DNA of 25,358 bases from IMG/VR virus record IMGVR_UViG_3300021178_000041, positions 1-25,358 of that record, one strand, 5' to 3'. Position 1 is the stretch's first letter. Every line of letters begins with the position of its first letter. Positions 5,527 through 24,090 of the stretch are shown one piece after another. The notes beneath the pieces were generated by a model. The model saw nothing but the letters and a program-made list of their open reading frames with translations. It ran no database searches and was not told the origin of the DNA. The position numbers and the translations under genes were made by a program. This DNA is from a virus.

Positions 5527-6864
5527 TCAATTCGGATTCCCGCCACGGAATGGACCTCGACCAACTCCGCCCCCTCCGCTGCCACTCCCGCTACTGCCGC
5601 CCCCAGTAACACCCGTTCCTACCGGCTGCGCTCCGATAGGCAGGCTCCCTAGCGTGCCTGTCCATACTTCTTCACATCGGCCCGTCTGAAGAAGTCCCGG
5701 CGTATCGAACGCCATCCAGTTCTTGTCTTCGATGGAGTACCAATAGTGTCGCGTGAACGTCGTCAGAGGAATCGAAATCCTGTAGGTCAAGTAAACGTAG
5801 CCAAGTCTCTCCGTGGGAACGATGGCCGCTGTAGGAACTCCGCTCGTCAAAGCCAAGTCCGCCATGATCGCGTCTCGAGCTTTCCCTCCAATCGCCTCGA
5901 AACTCGCCACGCCCATTTGATAGATTTGCTCAACCGAGATGAAGCACACGATGGAACCGTAACTGTGGATCGACCAGGAGTAGACGTTGCCGATTCCATG
6001 ATTGGACGCCCAGAGATGATCGAACTGAAACGGTACGAGAGAACTTCCCGTTGGCGTAAAGAACGTGATTCCATTGGTGCGGAACAGGTAGCCGCTGACA
6101 CCAATCGTGACAAGTCCCGTGATGGCGTCCGGCACATCGAGGAAATCGTTCTCTCCCGCGCTGGTATTGGACGCGAAATCCCACTGCGTTGGTATTCCGT
6201 TTGCGCTCCACCATAGACGGTTTGGGAAACTGTAGATGGTTCCGTTGGGATTATCGAGAAGCGAAATGTTGGCGAGCAAGAGTTGGTTGTTCAACTCTCC
6301 GAGAAATAATCCCCCAAACGAAAGCGGACCCGTGGAACCCGGCACGATGGTCGGCGCATCCGCTGTCGCTATCGCCGCAACCGAAGTTGCGCCGGGCGCA
6401 CCGGAATTAGAAGCTGTGGGCGACGTAGCGATGCCGTCCCACGACGAGAGAAACGTTCCTCCGTTCGTGTAGTAAAGAACGTTGGCGAATGCCTGATACG
6501 CGACAGGATTCCCAGCAACCAGATTCGGACCGCCGAGAATCGACCACGGCGACAGCGCACCAGGAGGAAGTCCCGAGGGAGCTAGTTGCCACAGCCCGCG
6601 CGTATTCCAGCCTACAGTGTGTGTAACGGAATTTACGTCGTTGAAACTATAAAGACCGAGCGCCGGGTTGATGGCATCCATTCCGGCGTACTGGAGCGCG
6701 AAACTCGCACACGACCGAAGCTCTTTGTTTCTGATTTGGAAATTGTTTGCGAAAGGAGTGCAATTGTCAGGAATTTCGGTCTCAGGCTCCTGGACGTTGA
6801 GGCCTCCGTCGAAGCCTTTGTAAGTTATTTCGAAGTATCCAGCCTTGCCCCATTGAATCGACAC
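5527..6864 (-). CDS. Putative DNA-stabilisation or tail-hub-like virion protein
   Basis: 445 residues. The N-terminus carries FDGGLNVQEPETEIPDNCTP followed by FANNFQIRNKELRS. This 'GGLN...IPDN..P...NN' pattern is typical of phage proteins annotated as packaged-DNA stabilisation or tail hub proteins (P22 gp10-like, propeller-type). The middle is beta-rich with many Gly, Trp and Phe, consistent with a repeated-blade fold. The last about 30 residues are Gly/Ser-rich (a run of GSGSGGGG type) and probably flexible. In P22-like particles this protein plugs the portal channel after packaging. The identification is by pattern; a siphovirus-type tail protein is the main alternative. Confidence 0.6.
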   Translation of the reverse strand: MSIQWGKAGYFEITYKGFDGGLNVQEPETEIPDNCTPFANNFQIRNKELRSCASFALQYAGMDAINPALGLYSFNDVNSVTHTVGWNTRGLWQLAPSGLPPGALSPWSILGGPNLVAGNPVAYQAFANVLYYTNGGTFLSSWDGIATSPTASNSGAPGATSVAAIATADAPTIVPGSTGPLSFGGLFLGELNNQLLLANISLLDNPNGTIYSFPNRLWWSANGIPTQWDFASNTSAGENDFLDVPDAITGLVTIGVSGYLFRTNGITFFTPTGSSLVPFQFDHLWASNHGIGNVYSWSIHSYGSIVCFISVEQIYQMGVASFEAIGGKARDAIMADLALTSGVPTAAIVPTERLGYVYLTYRISIPLTTFTRHYWYSIEDKNWMAFDTPGLLQTGRCEEVWTGTLGSLPIGAQPVGTGVTGGGSSGSGSGGGGVGRGPFRGGNPN

Positions 6865-6873
6865 ATGCGCCCC

Positions 6874-7392
6874 TCAGTTGATCGTGATCTGGAGCGTTCC
6901 TGATCCAGTAAATGTATTGATAACGAGTCCGCGAATCCAAAACACCTTGCCGTATGTGTAAGGTCCGATAGGTGGTGCTGCTGCCGATGTTGGTTTCCAC
7001 ACTAAGTTACCGAATACATCCGTCAGAGACAGCGTATCTCCCGCCGCTTGGGGCGACCAAAGAATTTGCTCCGCACGAATCATGTCTAAGTACGCGGCTG
7101 GCGTGAGCATGTTCCCCGTTGCCCCCGTGTTCGCCAACCCTCGATTCTTCATTTGGTTCTGAAGCAAGACCGTCGTCGCGCTCGGAACGTTTACCACACG
7201 ATAGCCGCCTGCATAGTTTCCAATCGTCCCGCCCTGCAAGCTGATTGCCTGCCCGCTCGAACCCACCGCAAATCCGTGCGCCGCGCTCGTGACCAGCAAC
7301 GACTCGCCTTGATTGACGATGCTCGTCAAGGCAAGCGTAGTCGCCGCATCAGCGGCTACGAAACTCCAGGGATTAGCGGCTATTTGAGCCAT
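6874..7392 (-). CDS. Virion protein, unknown
   Basis: 172 residues, beta-rich, starting MAQIAANPWSFVAADAATTL. It has alternating hydrophobic strands, several Gly-rich turns and no catalytic motif. The C-terminal strand set (GKVFWIRGLVINTFTGSGTL) suggests a small jelly-roll or sandwich domain, but no family is recognised. It sits seven bases after the 307-residue gene and ten bases before the 445-residue gene, on the same transcript. A structural role is inferred from position. Confidence 0.7.
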   Translation of the reverse strand: MAQIAANPWSFVAADAATTLALTSIVNQGESLLVTSAAHGFAVGSSGQAISLQGGTIGNYAGGYRVVNVPSATTVLLQNQMKNRGLANTGATGNMLTPAAYLDMIRAEQILWSPQAAGDTLSLTDVFGNLVWKPTSAAAPPIGPYTYGKVFWIRGLVINTFTGSGTLQITIN

Positions 7393-16329: not shown

Positions 16330-16916
16330 GCCGCTGTCCCTAGTGCCGCCGACTTCTTTACACGACGAAGTTCAAGGTGGCCGCTGATCTTCGCCAGCAC
16401 TTCCGACTCGCGCAAGATGACGATGGTGATTTGCACAGGATTTCCTTGCATGTCCTCCGCCGTCAGATCGTAAGCATGGCCCGCGAAGGAAGGATAGATT
16501 ACCGACTGCCCGCGCTCGAAATGCGTCACTTCGTTCCCGATACTCGCTATCGTTCCCGTCGTCGGTCTGCGCTCGCTCGCGTCCGGCACGATGATCACGC
16601 CGCCCTTACCTTCACAAGCGGGACAACGAACGAGACCTCTTCCTTCGCAGTGGGAACATTTGACCTTAAGATCGTCGGCAAGATCACGCTTGCGCCAGTT
16701 GAAACCAAGTCCGCTACATTCGGGACAAATAACGTGCGAAACTTGATTGATGACGTTCTTGCCGCCGCACACCGTACACTCGTACCCACTCACAAACGGG
16801 TCTTGCACAATCAGCAGGCGATCCGCATGAGCCTGCATCGTCATGGTCCCAAGTTTCAGGACGTTCGTTTCCAGCGCCGAAGCCAAATCTATCTCAGGCA
16901 CGTCAGTACCTCTCAT
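16326..16916 (-). CDS. GroES-like co-chaperonin with inserted DnaJ-type zinc domain
   Basis: 196 residues from ATG 16916 (GGAAG upstream; 14-base overlap with the preceding gene). A longer form from 16967 would overlap it by 65 bases. Residues 30-40 (HADRLLIVQDP) match the first strand of GroES (LHDRVIVKR). Residues 105-127 (GGVIIVPD then TTGTIASIG) match its GGIxL and RGEVLAVG strands, 136-146 its GDxVxF strand, and 163-177 (ITIVILRESEVLAKI) its C-terminal EEVLIMxESDILAI. Between the first strand and GGVII, where GroES has its mobile loop, sits a zinc domain with four Cys pairs: 47/50, 64/67, 87/90, 98/101. The last three are perfect CxxCxGxG, with spacings 17, 23 and 11 close to DnaJ. It probably acts with host GroEL on phage head proteins, as T4 gp31 does. 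The insertion is unusual. Confidence 0.8.
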   Translation of the reverse strand: MRGTDVPEIDLASALETNVLKLGTMTMQAHADRLLIVQDPFVSGYECTVCGGKNVINQVSHVICPECSGLGFNWRKRDLADDLKVKCSHCEGRGLVRCPACEGKGGVIIVPDASERRPTTGTIASIGNEVTHFERGQSVIYPSFAGHAYDLTAEDMQGNPVQITIVILRESEVLAKISGHLELRRVKKSAALGTAA

Positions 16917-17103
16917 CTTTCTTCCGATAGGTCGCGTAATTGATCGGCGTCCCCGGCTGTGAATCAATCAGCGTACGGTAGCCGCGACAGGACTTGCATC
17001 CGCAAAACTGCCATTTCGAATCCGCCGTGTGCTCCTCGGTCCCAACAATCTCATTCCCTTTCGGCATGTGAGCCACATGTCCCACTCCCGGCATCTCGTT
17101 CAT
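16903..17103 (-). CDS. Small Cys-containing protein, unknown
   Basis: 66 residues from the ATG at 17103, which overlaps the upstream stop (ATGA) and has AGGAG nine bases before it; a 17-residue longer form from 17154 lacks this support. The core is WQFCGCKSCRGYRTL, with three Cys that could bind one metal or be redox-active. The N-terminus is rich in Gly, His and Met. It sits between the ribbon-helix-helix gene and the chaperonin-like gene. The family is not recognised. Confidence 0.6.
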   Translation of the reverse strand: MNEMPGVGHVAHMPKGNEIVGTEEHTADSKWQFCGCKSCRGYRTLIDSQPGTPINYATYRKKDERY

Positions 17104-17423
17104 CGGTTGCACTCCTGGTGTTTGCAGAGTCCTGGGTACGCGCCATGCTTGCAAGGTTCGACAGGTGCGGGAACTGACTTAGGTCCACGACTGCGCCGTT
17201 GCTCCACAGATGGCGACTCAACCCGTGGCACGTTCGCTTCTCGATGATCTGCGGTCGGTTCATTCAGCCTCTCGATCACATAGTTCTTCAAACTCTTCCC
17301 CGCCAAACTTGCGCTCGCCTTCCATTGCCTGAACAGTTTTTCCTCGATGCCGCGAATCGTCAGCGTTGCCATCGTCTCACTTGTAGCATAAGTCTCATTC
17401 GTCGCATAAGTGGAAGAAATCAT
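17100..17423 (-). CDS. Ribbon-helix-helix protein with Cys-rich C-terminus
   Basis: 107 residues. Residues 19-54 (MATLTIRGIEEKLFRQW to YVIERLNE) match the strand-helix-helix of Arc/FitA/VapB-like DNA-binding proteins. A Pro/Arg-rich linker follows and then CKHGAYPGLC with a third Cys five residues on, possibly a metal knuckle. The ATG at 17423 overlaps the previous stop (ATGA). An internal ATG at 17370-17372 would remove an N-terminal stretch with two copies of TYAT[NS]ET, encoded by an imperfect 18-bp direct repeat. No toxin gene is adjacent, so an antitoxin role is unlikely. A transcriptional regulator of the operon fits better. Confidence 0.65.
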   Translation of the reverse strand: MISSTYATNETYATSETMATLTIRGIEEKLFRQWKASASLAGKSLKNYVIERLNEPTADHREANVPRVESPSVEQRRSRGPKSVPAPVEPCKHGAYPGLCKHQECNR

Positions 17424-18504: not shown

Positions 18505-18606
18505 CTTTGTGAGCACCCATCTCCAGACCGCTTGGGGGGTGCCGTACAGAAACTTTTGTAGCCTTAGCGGGGGAACCCGTCTTGTAACTGGGAAGGGAGA
18601 TCGTAC
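18505..18606 (+). other. Intergenic leader with three short hairpins
   Basis: No gene is seen. Three inverted repeats follow each other: GCACCC/GGGTGC (18513-18518 and 18537-18542), TACA/TGTA (18545-18548 and 18554-18557, approximate), and CGGG-GGAA-CCCG (18567-18578). A strong SD (AAGGGAG) and the next gene follow. There is no T-run, so this is not a classic terminator. It may be a structured leader. Short stems of this size can occur by chance. Confidence 0.4.
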
Positions 18607-18870
18607 ATGACTGAACTCGAAAGTAAAGTACCGGTGCACACTCTACCGGGACTCAAACGGTACATCGAAAATCACATCGAACCGGGCGGATTCTTGTCCG
18701 CTGTCCTCAGCAATGATTTGAAAGAATCGTTTGGACGCGCCGACCAAGAGAACCGTGAGCACTTGTTCGACATCGTGAATTTTCTCTACAACGAAGCACC
18801 TGCTACTTGCTGGGGCAGTCCTGAAAAAGTGAAAGCATGGTTGCGGGAACTGTACGTAGATTACAGCTAA
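18607..18870 (+). CDS. Conserved-looking small phage protein, unknown
   Basis: 87 residues. The layout LPGLKRYIENHIEPGGFLSA, then VLSNDLKESFGRADQENR, then LFDIVNFLYNEAPATCWGSP is one I recall from small uncharacterised phage proteins ('G.fl.avL.Ndl..afgrAd..nr..lfdiv.flyn.aP...wGSpe'). It is helical and without metal motifs. The SD is AAGGGAG. It lies in the early region before several other small genes. The function is unknown; conservation of the pattern suggests a real role. Confidence 0.7.
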   Translation: MTELESKVPVHTLPGLKRYIENHIEPGGFLSAVLSNDLKESFGRADQENREHLFDIVNFLYNEAPATCWGSPEKVKAWLRELYVDYS

Positions 18871-18905
18871 CAATATGTCTTTTACCTGACAGGAGGGAGC
18901 GGACA

Positions 18906-21781: not shown

Positions 21782-21979
21782 ATGGACGAACAAACGGCCA
21801 ATTTCATTAGGCGCTGCGAAGAGATTCAGAAACGGTGCGCCTGCGTTGCCTATGATGCGAAAGAGTGTATGAGTATTCGCAATCCCGCCGACGAATGGGA
21901 CGAGCCGAACGATCAGGAATGCGAATGCGCTTGCCACGAGGAAATTGCCGAAGAAGAAGGCGATCAGTTGTGGCCTTGA
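21782..21979 (+). CDS. Small Cys-rich acidic protein, unknown
   Basis: 65 residues with seven Cys. They occur as CEEIQKRCAC, then KEC, then CECACHEE, so one or two metal sites are likely. The middle reads MSIRNPADEWDEPNDQE, and the C-terminus is acidic. I recall a similar 'RC.C.Ay....C...RNP..wd....C.C.CH' pattern in small phage proteins without known function. The SD is weak. A perfect hairpin lies just upstream. Confidence 0.65.
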   Translation: MDEQTANFIRRCEEIQKRCACVAYDAKECMSIRNPADEWDEPNDQECECACHEEIAEEEGDQLWP

Positions 21980-22009
21980 GTTTGCTGTTCGTCTTCCCCG
22001 CAGCAATAG

Positions 22010-22056
22010 GCCGGGAGTGCGGAAGAACGTGCGGGCCACGGCTCCGCGCTCCCGGC
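22010..22056 (+). ncRNA. Long GC-rich stem-loop in the gap before the HNH gene
   Basis: GCCGGGAG (22010-22017) pairs with CTCCCGGC (22049-22056). The stem continues through one G-U pair and GCGG/CCGC (22019-22022 with 22044-22047), making about 13 pairs. The 21-base loop contains a second small hairpin, CGTG/CACG (22028-22031 with 22037-22040). No T-run follows, so it is not a standard terminator. It could be a structured RNA or a processing site. The rest of the 160-base gap (21980-22138) shows no gene. Confidence 0.55.
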
Positions 22057-22138
22057 GAATGATTCAATGATAAAAACATAGCGACAAAATGTTACTTGTT
22101 ATGGATCATCGGGAACGCTGAGGGGCAGAAAAGAGCCT

Positions 22139-22501
22139 ATGCCCCTGAACGGCTTCAAACGCGATGAAGAGGCCACTGGGAAAGCTGGATTCCTGGACCG
22201 GGCGAGTTATGTCACCTTGCCGAAATTCGGGGAGCCTCACGTCATCCTGCATGGTTTGGACAAGGAAGCCCAACGGCGTGCGCTATTTGCTAGAGAGAAA
22301 AGCATTTGCCAGAAATGCAGCATACGAGTGTACTGGGAAGGCCCGCTCTGGCAGGTCGGCGAGTGGTCGCATATCGAAGATTCAATCGGCAAGAAGTGCG
22401 ATTGTTTACACAACGCGGAGTTGCTGTGCCACAACTGCCACCAGGGGCCGGGATCGAAGCACTACCTACGTCGGCCCCGGTTGGGCACCCCGTCTATTTA
22501 G
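22139..22501 (+). CDS. HNH-type endonuclease-like protein
   Basis: 120 residues. The zinc site is formed by Cys57/Cys60 (CQKC) and Cys97/Cys100 (CHNCH). The HNH-like core has His78 (EWSHIED), Asn92 (HNAELL) and His101, in the usual order H-N-H. The usual DH pair is spelled SH here, so catalytic strength is uncertain. An extra Cys pair (KCDC, 87-89) sits within the fold. HNH proteins in phages cut DNA and many act in packaging, but this one is in the early region away from the terminase, which suggests a homing- or restriction-type role or a free DNA-nicking enzyme. Confidence 0.7.
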   Translation: MPLNGFKRDEEATGKAGFLDRASYVTLPKFGEPHVILHGLDKEAQRRALFAREKSICQKCSIRVYWEGPLWQVGEWSHIEDSIGKKCDCLHNAELLCHNCHQGPGSKHYLRRPRLGTPSI

Positions 22502-22591: not shown

Positions 22592-22807
22592 ATGAAACTC
22601 GAATACTACGTTGTCGTTCCCGATGAATTGGCGGCTGGCATTCGCGGATTCACCGATGAGATTACCGTTGAGATTAGAAACGGCTCACCGGAGAAGGAAA
22701 CCGTAGAAGCCTGCACGGAGCACTTCAGGCAGGCAATTAGCGAATGGTACGACGCTGGCCGGGTGTACACGAAGGCTGAGTTCCATGACTGGAGCCAAGT
22801 TGAATGA
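22592..22807 (+). CDS. Small protein coupled to the methyltransferase, unknown
   Basis: 71 residues from ATG 22592, which has GGGAGG nine bases upstream; longer in-frame starts lack this. The sequence is mixed strand and helix (YYVVVPDELAAGIRGFTDEI, then HFRQAISEWYDAGRVYTKAE). The stop overlaps the methyltransferase start by four bases (ATGA), so the two are made together. No DNA-binding or metal motif is visible. It may be a small partner or simply co-transcribed. Confidence 0.65.
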   Translation: MKLEYYVVVPDELAAGIRGFTDEITVEIRNGSPEKETVEACTEHFRQAISEWYDAGRVYTKAEFHDWSQVE

Positions 22808-23487
22808 GGCCTTATTTTGAGGAGGAGTGCCAGACGATATATCACGGAGATTGCCGGGAAGTATGGGCCCGAATCGCGAAGCCTTGCGATGTGATCGTGA
22901 CGGACCCGCCTTATGGAATATCTGGAATGCGCCACGGATTAAGCCCAAACAACGGCTATGCCAGCAAGGGAGATTATGATACCGACGAGTTCGAGGACAC
23001 GCAGGCCTATGTTTCTACGGTTGTCGTGCCAATTTTGAATGAGATGCGCCTGCTAGTTCCGCGCTGTGTGCTCACCCCTGGGCAGGTGAACATTCACAAA
23101 TATCCAGAGCCGGAGCACATTGGCGCTTTTTACTATCCGGCAAGCACGTCAATTTCGAGATGGGGTATGCGTCTCTGGCAACCGATTTTCTACTATGGCA
23201 TTGATCCTTACCAAGGGCAGTTAAAGCCCGACGGCATCATTTGCTATGACTCCGACCGCGAAACTGAGCATCCATGCCCCAAGCCTATCAAATCGTGGAA
23301 ATGGCTCGTCAACCGCGCTTCCGTTCCCGGGGATGTTGTTCTTGACCCCTTCCTGGGCAGCGGAACCACGCTCAGAGCTTGCAAGGATTTAGGTCGGCGG
23401 GGAATTGGGATAGAAATAGAAGAAAAATACTGCGAGATTGCCGCAAAAAGATTGTCTCAAAAAGTTTTCAACTTCGATGCGAAATAA
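22804..23487 (+). CDS. Beta-class DNA methyltransferase (adenine-N6 or cytosine-N4)
   Basis: 227 residues. The catalytic motif DPPY is at residues 34-37 (VIVTDPPYGIS). The AdoMet-binding motif comes after it, at 181-189 (DPFLGSGTT), preceded by a motif like HPxxKP (HPCPKP, 156-161). This order marks the beta class. At 227 residues it is short for the family and has only a small target-recognition region (about 45-140). No restriction endonuclease gene is next to it, so it is an orphan, probably used to protect phage DNA from host restriction or to regulate. The target site cannot be read from sequence. Confidence 0.88.
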   Translation: MRPYFEEECQTIYHGDCREVWARIAKPCDVIVTDPPYGISGMRHGLSPNNGYASKGDYDTDEFEDTQAYVSTVVVPILNEMRLLVPRCVLTPGQVNIHKYPEPEHIGAFYYPASTSISRWGMRLWQPIFYYGIDPYQGQLKPDGIICYDSDRETEHPCPKPIKSWKWLVNRASVPGDVVLDPFLGSGTTLRACKDLGRRGIGIEIEEKYCEIAAKRLSQKVFNFDAK

Positions 23488-23490
23488 CTT

Positions 23491-23869
23491 GACAGATTCC
23501 CGCCGCGCGTGCCAACATGCCAGTGTCGGGCGGGGCGGTCCTCTGGTTAAATTCTTAGCCGGATTGCCGCCAGTAACCGCCCCAACTCGACTTGGTAATC
23601 CGGCTAATGACCATAAAATCGTCCACGGAATTTGTGATCGCGTGCATGGGTCGTTCGCCATTTTCCCGCGTCCCCAAGCTAGAAATAAGTCCTGCGCTGA
23701 GTGGCCACTTCTCAACAGGCGACTGCCTATAGCGCAAGGACGTGGTGTGTGTAGTGGTAGTTGGCAGGGGAGAAAGAGTAACTGCAACACCGTTGAACAT
23801 GTTACTGGCTACCCCCAACTACAAATTCAAAGTCTAAAGTCAAAGGCAGGAAAAGAAGTGGCGGGTGTC
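23491..23869 (+). ncRNA. Gene-free region with extensive nested and interleaved inverted repeats; candidate structured RNA
   Basis: No convincing gene fills this 387-base gap. An outer pairing joins GACA..CCCGCC (23491-23494, 23499-23504) with GGCGGG-TGTC (23860-23869). Inside: GGGGCGGT/ACCGCCCC (23532-23539 with 23576-23583) interleaves with an 11-base pair TTAGCCGGATT/AATCCGGCTAA (23555-23565 with 23597-23607), a pseudoknot layout. Next, GACCAT/ATGG-TC with CACG/CGTG (23609-23652). Then GTCCTGCGCT with AGCGC-A-AGGAC (23689-23698 with 23731-23741) holding AGGC-GACT-GCCT (23717-23728). Last, GTAGTTGG/CCAACTAC (23757-23764 with 23815-23822) enclosing GGG/CCC, AGTAAC/GTTACT and CAAC/GTTG. It does not match tmRNA, RNase P RNA or group I intron cores I know. 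The strand is assumed from neighbouring genes. Confidence 0.55.
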
Positions 23870-23874
23870 TCTAA

Positions 23875-24090
23875 ATGGTTCAAGATCACAACACAGCAAC
23901 GCGCGAATCTCTGGAATTGAAAGCCAAACTTCGGCGCACGCGGGATGATGGAACTTGCCAAGACTGCGGTGACGATGTTCCCCATCGGCGGGTTCGCTGT
24001 CCACATTGCAAGTTGCTGGTCTGTGGCTGGTGCTATAACCATGTCCACGGGATTTGGGGAGGCCATGAATACCAAACTAAAAGGGCTTGA
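23875..24090 (+). CDS. Small zinc-finger protein, unknown
   Basis: 71 residues. Cys pairs CQDC (residues 28-31), CPHC and CGWC, then a HVHG, form a compact 'C2-C2-C2-H2' array (DDGTCQDCGDDVPHRRVRCP, then LLVCGWCYNHVHG) that should bind two zinc ions in a treble-clef or B-box-like fold. The N-terminus is helical and basic. The SD is weak. It follows the structured gap. The function is unknown; such proteins may act in protein-protein or nucleic-acid contacts. Confidence 0.65.
   Translation: MVQDHNTATRESLELKAKLRRTRDDGTCQDCGDDVPHRRVRCPHCKLLVCGWCYNHVHGIWGGHEYQTKRA

Follow-up and report, generated by a model that had tools for sequence, protein, structure and literature searches.

Large, ornate RNAs of phages and bacteria include GOLLD, ROOL, and OLE (PMC12286853, PMC2864571). 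GOLLD and ROOL are large, structured RNAs that occur in phages or prophages and in metagenomes, and the segment studied here, a 387-base gap between two genes in a phage metagenome record, is likewise structured. It is smaller than these RNAs, however, matches none of the three in Rfam, and belongs to no demonstrated conserved or covarying family. Structured elements in the intercistronic regions of phage mRNAs form a general class that offers a second comparison. Judged from sequence alone, the gap resembles these elements in its position between co-directional genes, its strong hairpins, and its lack of a promoter or terminator of its own, but it is much longer than a typical phage intercistronic hairpin.

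The window analyzed is the entire 25,358-base IMG/VR virus record IMGVR_UViG_3300021178_000041, to which all window coordinates refer. Its source is an uncultivated soil phage lineage. The record represents a tailed phage, with terminase, portal-like, and capsid-like genes on the minus strand and early genes on the plus strand. The gap extends from the stop codon of a DNA methyltransferase (MTase) gene to the first ATG of a small Cys-rich gene (Table 1), and its length is that given in the original prediction. The real start of the Cys-rich gene may be TTG 23917 rather than this ATG, because the N terminus would then be nearer in length to those of its counterparts in phages L082 and L143. The single promoter-like site in the gap is weak and at chance level, and a search of the gap for its own terminator found none. 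As neither signal is convincing, the gap is probably cotranscribed with its neighbors. Elsewhere in the record, the contig end (25128-25358) carries tandem repeats of the type (A/D)QL(G/R/W), and a phage 99.98% identical over 12 kb (L083) lacks window positions 16908-17333 and 18591-18876, which marks recent indels between near-identical phages.

Table 1. Features in and around the gap between the MTase and zinc-ribbon-like genes (window coordinates).
Feature	Coordinates	Strand	Evidence
DNA methyltransferase (MTase) gene, N6_N4_Mtase	22804-23487	+	Pfam PF01555 E 9.7e-26; PHROG 67 E 1e-41; adjoins gap on 5' side
Open reading frame, 147 codons plus stop	23477-23920	+	Spans gap
Gap, candidate structured RNA	23488-23874	+	Fold z -3.87; noncoding-like codon profile; no Rfam match
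Closing helix CCCGCC/GGCGGG	23499-23504/23860-23865	+	Pair probability 1.0
5' domain, long bulged hairpin	23516-23612	+	-42.5 kcal/mol; z -3.58; 1/200 shuffles as low
Alternative 11-pair helix UUAGCCGGAUU/AAUCCGGCUAA	23555-23607	+	Interleaves with 8-pair helix
Middle stem-loop GUCCU+GCGCUG/UAGCGC+AGGAC	23683-23745	+	z -2.94
Three-level hairpin (inner levels 23777-23806, 23785-23795)	23757-23822	+	Pair probabilities 0.8-0.99
Small Cys-rich (zinc-ribbon-like) gene 3' of gap	23875-24090	+	L082 60% identity over residues 28-60; L143 48%

We tentatively interpret the gap as an untranslated, structured, unclassified intercistronic RNA segment in a polycistronic early-region transcript that includes the MTase and zinc-ribbon genes. 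This interpretation is supported by the excess stability of the plus strand, strong stem-loops, noncoding-like codon usage, and the absence of a match to any known RNA family. The plus strand of 23485-23875 folds at -142.8 kcal/mol, and none of 100 dinucleotide shuffles reached so low an energy. The minus strand gives a z of only -1.12, so the excess is confined to the coding strand. Among 104 tiled plus-strand windows in the record, the gap has the lowest z (-3.66 in the tiling). The signal is not unique, however, as coding DNA of the same record reaches -3.27 in the tiled scan. Selection on RNA structure, as originally suggested, is supported in part, by the excess folding.

Within the gap, the folding signal is concentrated in the 5' domain and the middle stem-loop. 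The latter contains the predicted 10-pair stem, found as 10 to 11 pairs at 23689-23699/23730-23741. The predicted three-level nested hairpin also exists, with high pair probabilities, but the region around it (23750-23835) has a z of only -1.66. Near its ends the gap is complementary as CCCGCC/GGCGGG, as was proposed, and these six pairs have a probability of 1.0 in the ensemble, but end-to-end complementarity is not above chance (p 0.094 versus shuffles). A separate intergenic stretch in the early region (21975-22140), for which no DNA relatives were found, forms a long GC-rich hairpin and folds still more strongly (z -4.40, 0/200 shuffles).

The perfect 11-base inverted repeat TTAGCCGGATT (23555-23565/23597-23607) and the 8-base inverted repeat GGGGCGGT (23532-23539/23576-23583) lie in a-b-a'-b' order. 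In 1000 dinucleotide shuffles this combination never arose, whereas an 11-base repeat of any kind turned up in 0.3%. The repeats and their order, from which an H-type pseudoknot had been proposed, are therefore real and above chance. Formation of the pseudoknot itself is not supported by energy modeling, in which nested folding appears as good or better (-36.5 kcal/mol, compared to about -33 kcal/mol for both helices with a standard penalty in the same region). In the ensemble for the whole gap, which by design cannot contain pseudoknots, the pair probability of the 11-base helix is 0.0. The 8-pair helix GGGGCGGU/ACCGCCCC is part of the 5' domain, and the 5' arm of the 11-pair helix can instead pair locally with UCUGGUUAA. 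UUAGCCGGA can thus pair in two ways that rule each other out, and, speculatively, this choice might serve as a switch. The gap hairpins would separate the MTase and zinc-ribbon genes within one message, and may protect the 3' end of the MTase mRNA and/or limit read-through translation into the next gene.

No covariance model in Rfam 15 (including those for tmRNA, RNase P, group I intron, GOLLD, ROOL, and HEARO) matched the gap at its gathering score. Permissive thresholds yielded just two chance eukaryotic matches (E 3.8-6.6), and ARAGORN found no tRNA or tmRNA genes in the window. The earlier exclusion of tmRNA, RNase P RNA, and group I introns thus holds at the Rfam and ARAGORN thresholds used. 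Relatives were equally elusive: blastn against phages and plasmids returned chance-length matches at most, and comparison with 396 genomes sampled around an acidobacterial genome gave only chance-like matches of 20-31 bases. Infernal models of two sub-domains of the gap detected no relatives in about 0.8 Mb, nor did one of the two in 38 whole records. Scans with the MTase, the terminase, two early proteins, and the zinc-ribbon protein recovered syntenic loci, none of which held a homologue of the gap. The collections searched thus appear to contain no close homologue, and this, together with the lack of demonstrated covariation, counts against a structured RNA segment. So do the strong folding of a coding window, the syntenic region of L143, which lacks the stretch, and the spanning open frame, which offers a competing reading.

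The phages L004 (IMGVR_UViG_3300050821_002521) and L091 (IMGVR_UViG_3300049793_000239) both have long low-coding stretches 3' of their MTase genes. The MTase is 62-63% identical in L004, where the figure is 62%, and in a further phage, L002. The terminase and portal-like proteins of L091 are 63-66% identical to those of the window, and L091 has a homologue of the 24564-24872 gene. The gene context of the gap is similar to that of both stretches. In sequence, the similarity between the L004 and L091 stretches covers most of both (p 0.001-0.002), and the 3' half of the gap is weakly similar to the L004 stretch (p 0.001-0.016 versus shuffles, depending on scoring; p 0.0003-0.005 versus real phage segments). 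This last similarity is suggestive rather than secure, because three pairs were compared under several scoring schemes. The gap and the L091 stretch have no detectable similarity.

Structural comparison did not establish a shared structure. Alignment of the 3' halves of the gap and L004 scores only 1.9-2.9 z units above shuffles. Over the whole stretches, Sankoff-type alignment reaches z 1.2, and the gap gives no significant full-length result with either L004 or L091. The gap/L004 consensus fold is weak (-13.3 kcal/mol, compared to -74 and -83 kcal/mol for the sequences alone), and RNAalifold, applied to the alignments of these stretches, returned weak consensus structures. The fold z is -2.79 for the L091 stretch and -1.65 for that of L004. 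In their post-MTase stretches, the two phages have in common CTGGAACCTnGC...AAACACGACTTTG, at L004 2090-2126 and L091 654-691 (minus strand). The copies differ in register by one base and therefore do not represent one conserved frame. An IMG/VR scan with the pattern GGAACCTnGC...AAACACGACTTTG recovered L004 and L091 only, and a looser pattern recovered mostly coding KHDF motifs. The L004 motif includes pairing of the GACTTTG/CAAAGTC type. A group I intron reading of GACTTTG...CAAAGTC in L004 and L091 was set aside without Rfam support, as even permissive Rfam thresholds gave no match in either stretch.

The interleaved repeats, the likeness of the 3' half to L004, and the shared MTase context nevertheless suggest an RNA segment. 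It is improbable that the window, L004, and L091 hold the first, highly diverged members of a new phage RNA class of roughly 390-530 bases, located 3' of DNA MTase genes in soil phages. If the gap is a functional RNA, it would be an unclassified structured element, possibly tied to DNA-methylation cassettes, in a soil phage lineage that is uncultivated, and it would illustrate the number of phage RNAs that family libraries miss because relatives are lacking.

The foremost alternative, which deserves attention but which we consider unlikely, is that the spanning frame is a small, fast-diverging gene for a basic orphan protein of 147 residues and that the RNA structure is incidental. The gap had been described as gene-free; this was too strong for a segment with a plus-strand frame open throughout. 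The codon usage is nevertheless noncoding-like, with no coding signal by codon profile in any gap frame. The ATG of the frame overlaps the MTase stop and its TGA overlaps TTG 23917, and such overlaps of stop and start are typical of coupled phage genes. The probability that any plus-strand frame stays open through the gap is 0.0115 by shuffling, and the equivalent stretch of L004 also has an open frame throughout (p 0.0025). Aligned over their full length, the two translations outscore shuffled residues (p 0.001-0.011) and almost every one of 1238 real ORFs (p about 0.002-0.005, with the self-match counted). The codon scores of the gap frame (-0.08 per codon) and the L004 frame (-0.03) are below those of called genes (0.11-0.34, or at least 0.07 where both frames are compared). 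Codon usage does not discriminate perfectly in this case, because the zinc-ribbon gene, a genuine small gene with homologues, also scores negative (-0.13 to -0.18).

The DNA comparison is less favorable to a protein. The alignment of the gap with L004 is mostly out of phase, its in-phase blocks have 71/62/70% identity at the three codon positions without a codon-position pattern, and in the codon alignment third positions agree no more often than under the null. The L091 stretch is related to that of L004, but its corresponding frame is broken by many stops. Searches of the gap-frame translation against Pfam and PHROG and by tblastn found no homologue, and ATG 23477 has no Shine-Dalgarno sequence 5' of it.

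It is also rather doubtful that the gap is functionless spacer or decayed DNA, such as the remnant of an old gene or mobile element after the MTase cassette, in which inverted repeats fold well by chance. Such an origin would accord with conservation limited to marginal similarity with one phage, L004, and with the situation in L143, whose exonuclease is 70% identical and which also carries the zinc-ribbon gene, but whose syntenic region lacks the stretch. Moreover, part of the excess stability reflects selection of the locus, because the original prediction chose the most structured gap, and z values down to -3.3 occur elsewhere in the record. Phage genomes, however, seldom retain as many as 387 spare bases, and neither the stability of the gap and its 5' domain relative to shuffles nor the residual similarity to L004 in DNA and translation is expected of a spacer. 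Were the gap coding or spacer, the case would show that folding energy and inverted repeats are, by themselves, poor grounds for identifying a phage RNA. A DNA-level element, in which the three perfect inverted repeats of 8-11 bases serve as protein-binding sites or as part of a replication origin, is very improbable, as the stability excess is strand specific and therefore does not come from palindromic DNA sites alone.

Two further observations concern other phages in the comparison. A 4-kb contig (L096) has terminase-like sequence in two inverted copies and is probably an assembly palindrome. In a related phage, L101 (IMGVR_UViG_3300021170_000033), positions 7166-7309 match the Y RNA-like family YrlA (RF02553) with 27.7 bits (E 8e-4), which falls short of the gathering score of 69. 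Five clustered tRNA genes lie close to this match, at 6182-6718.
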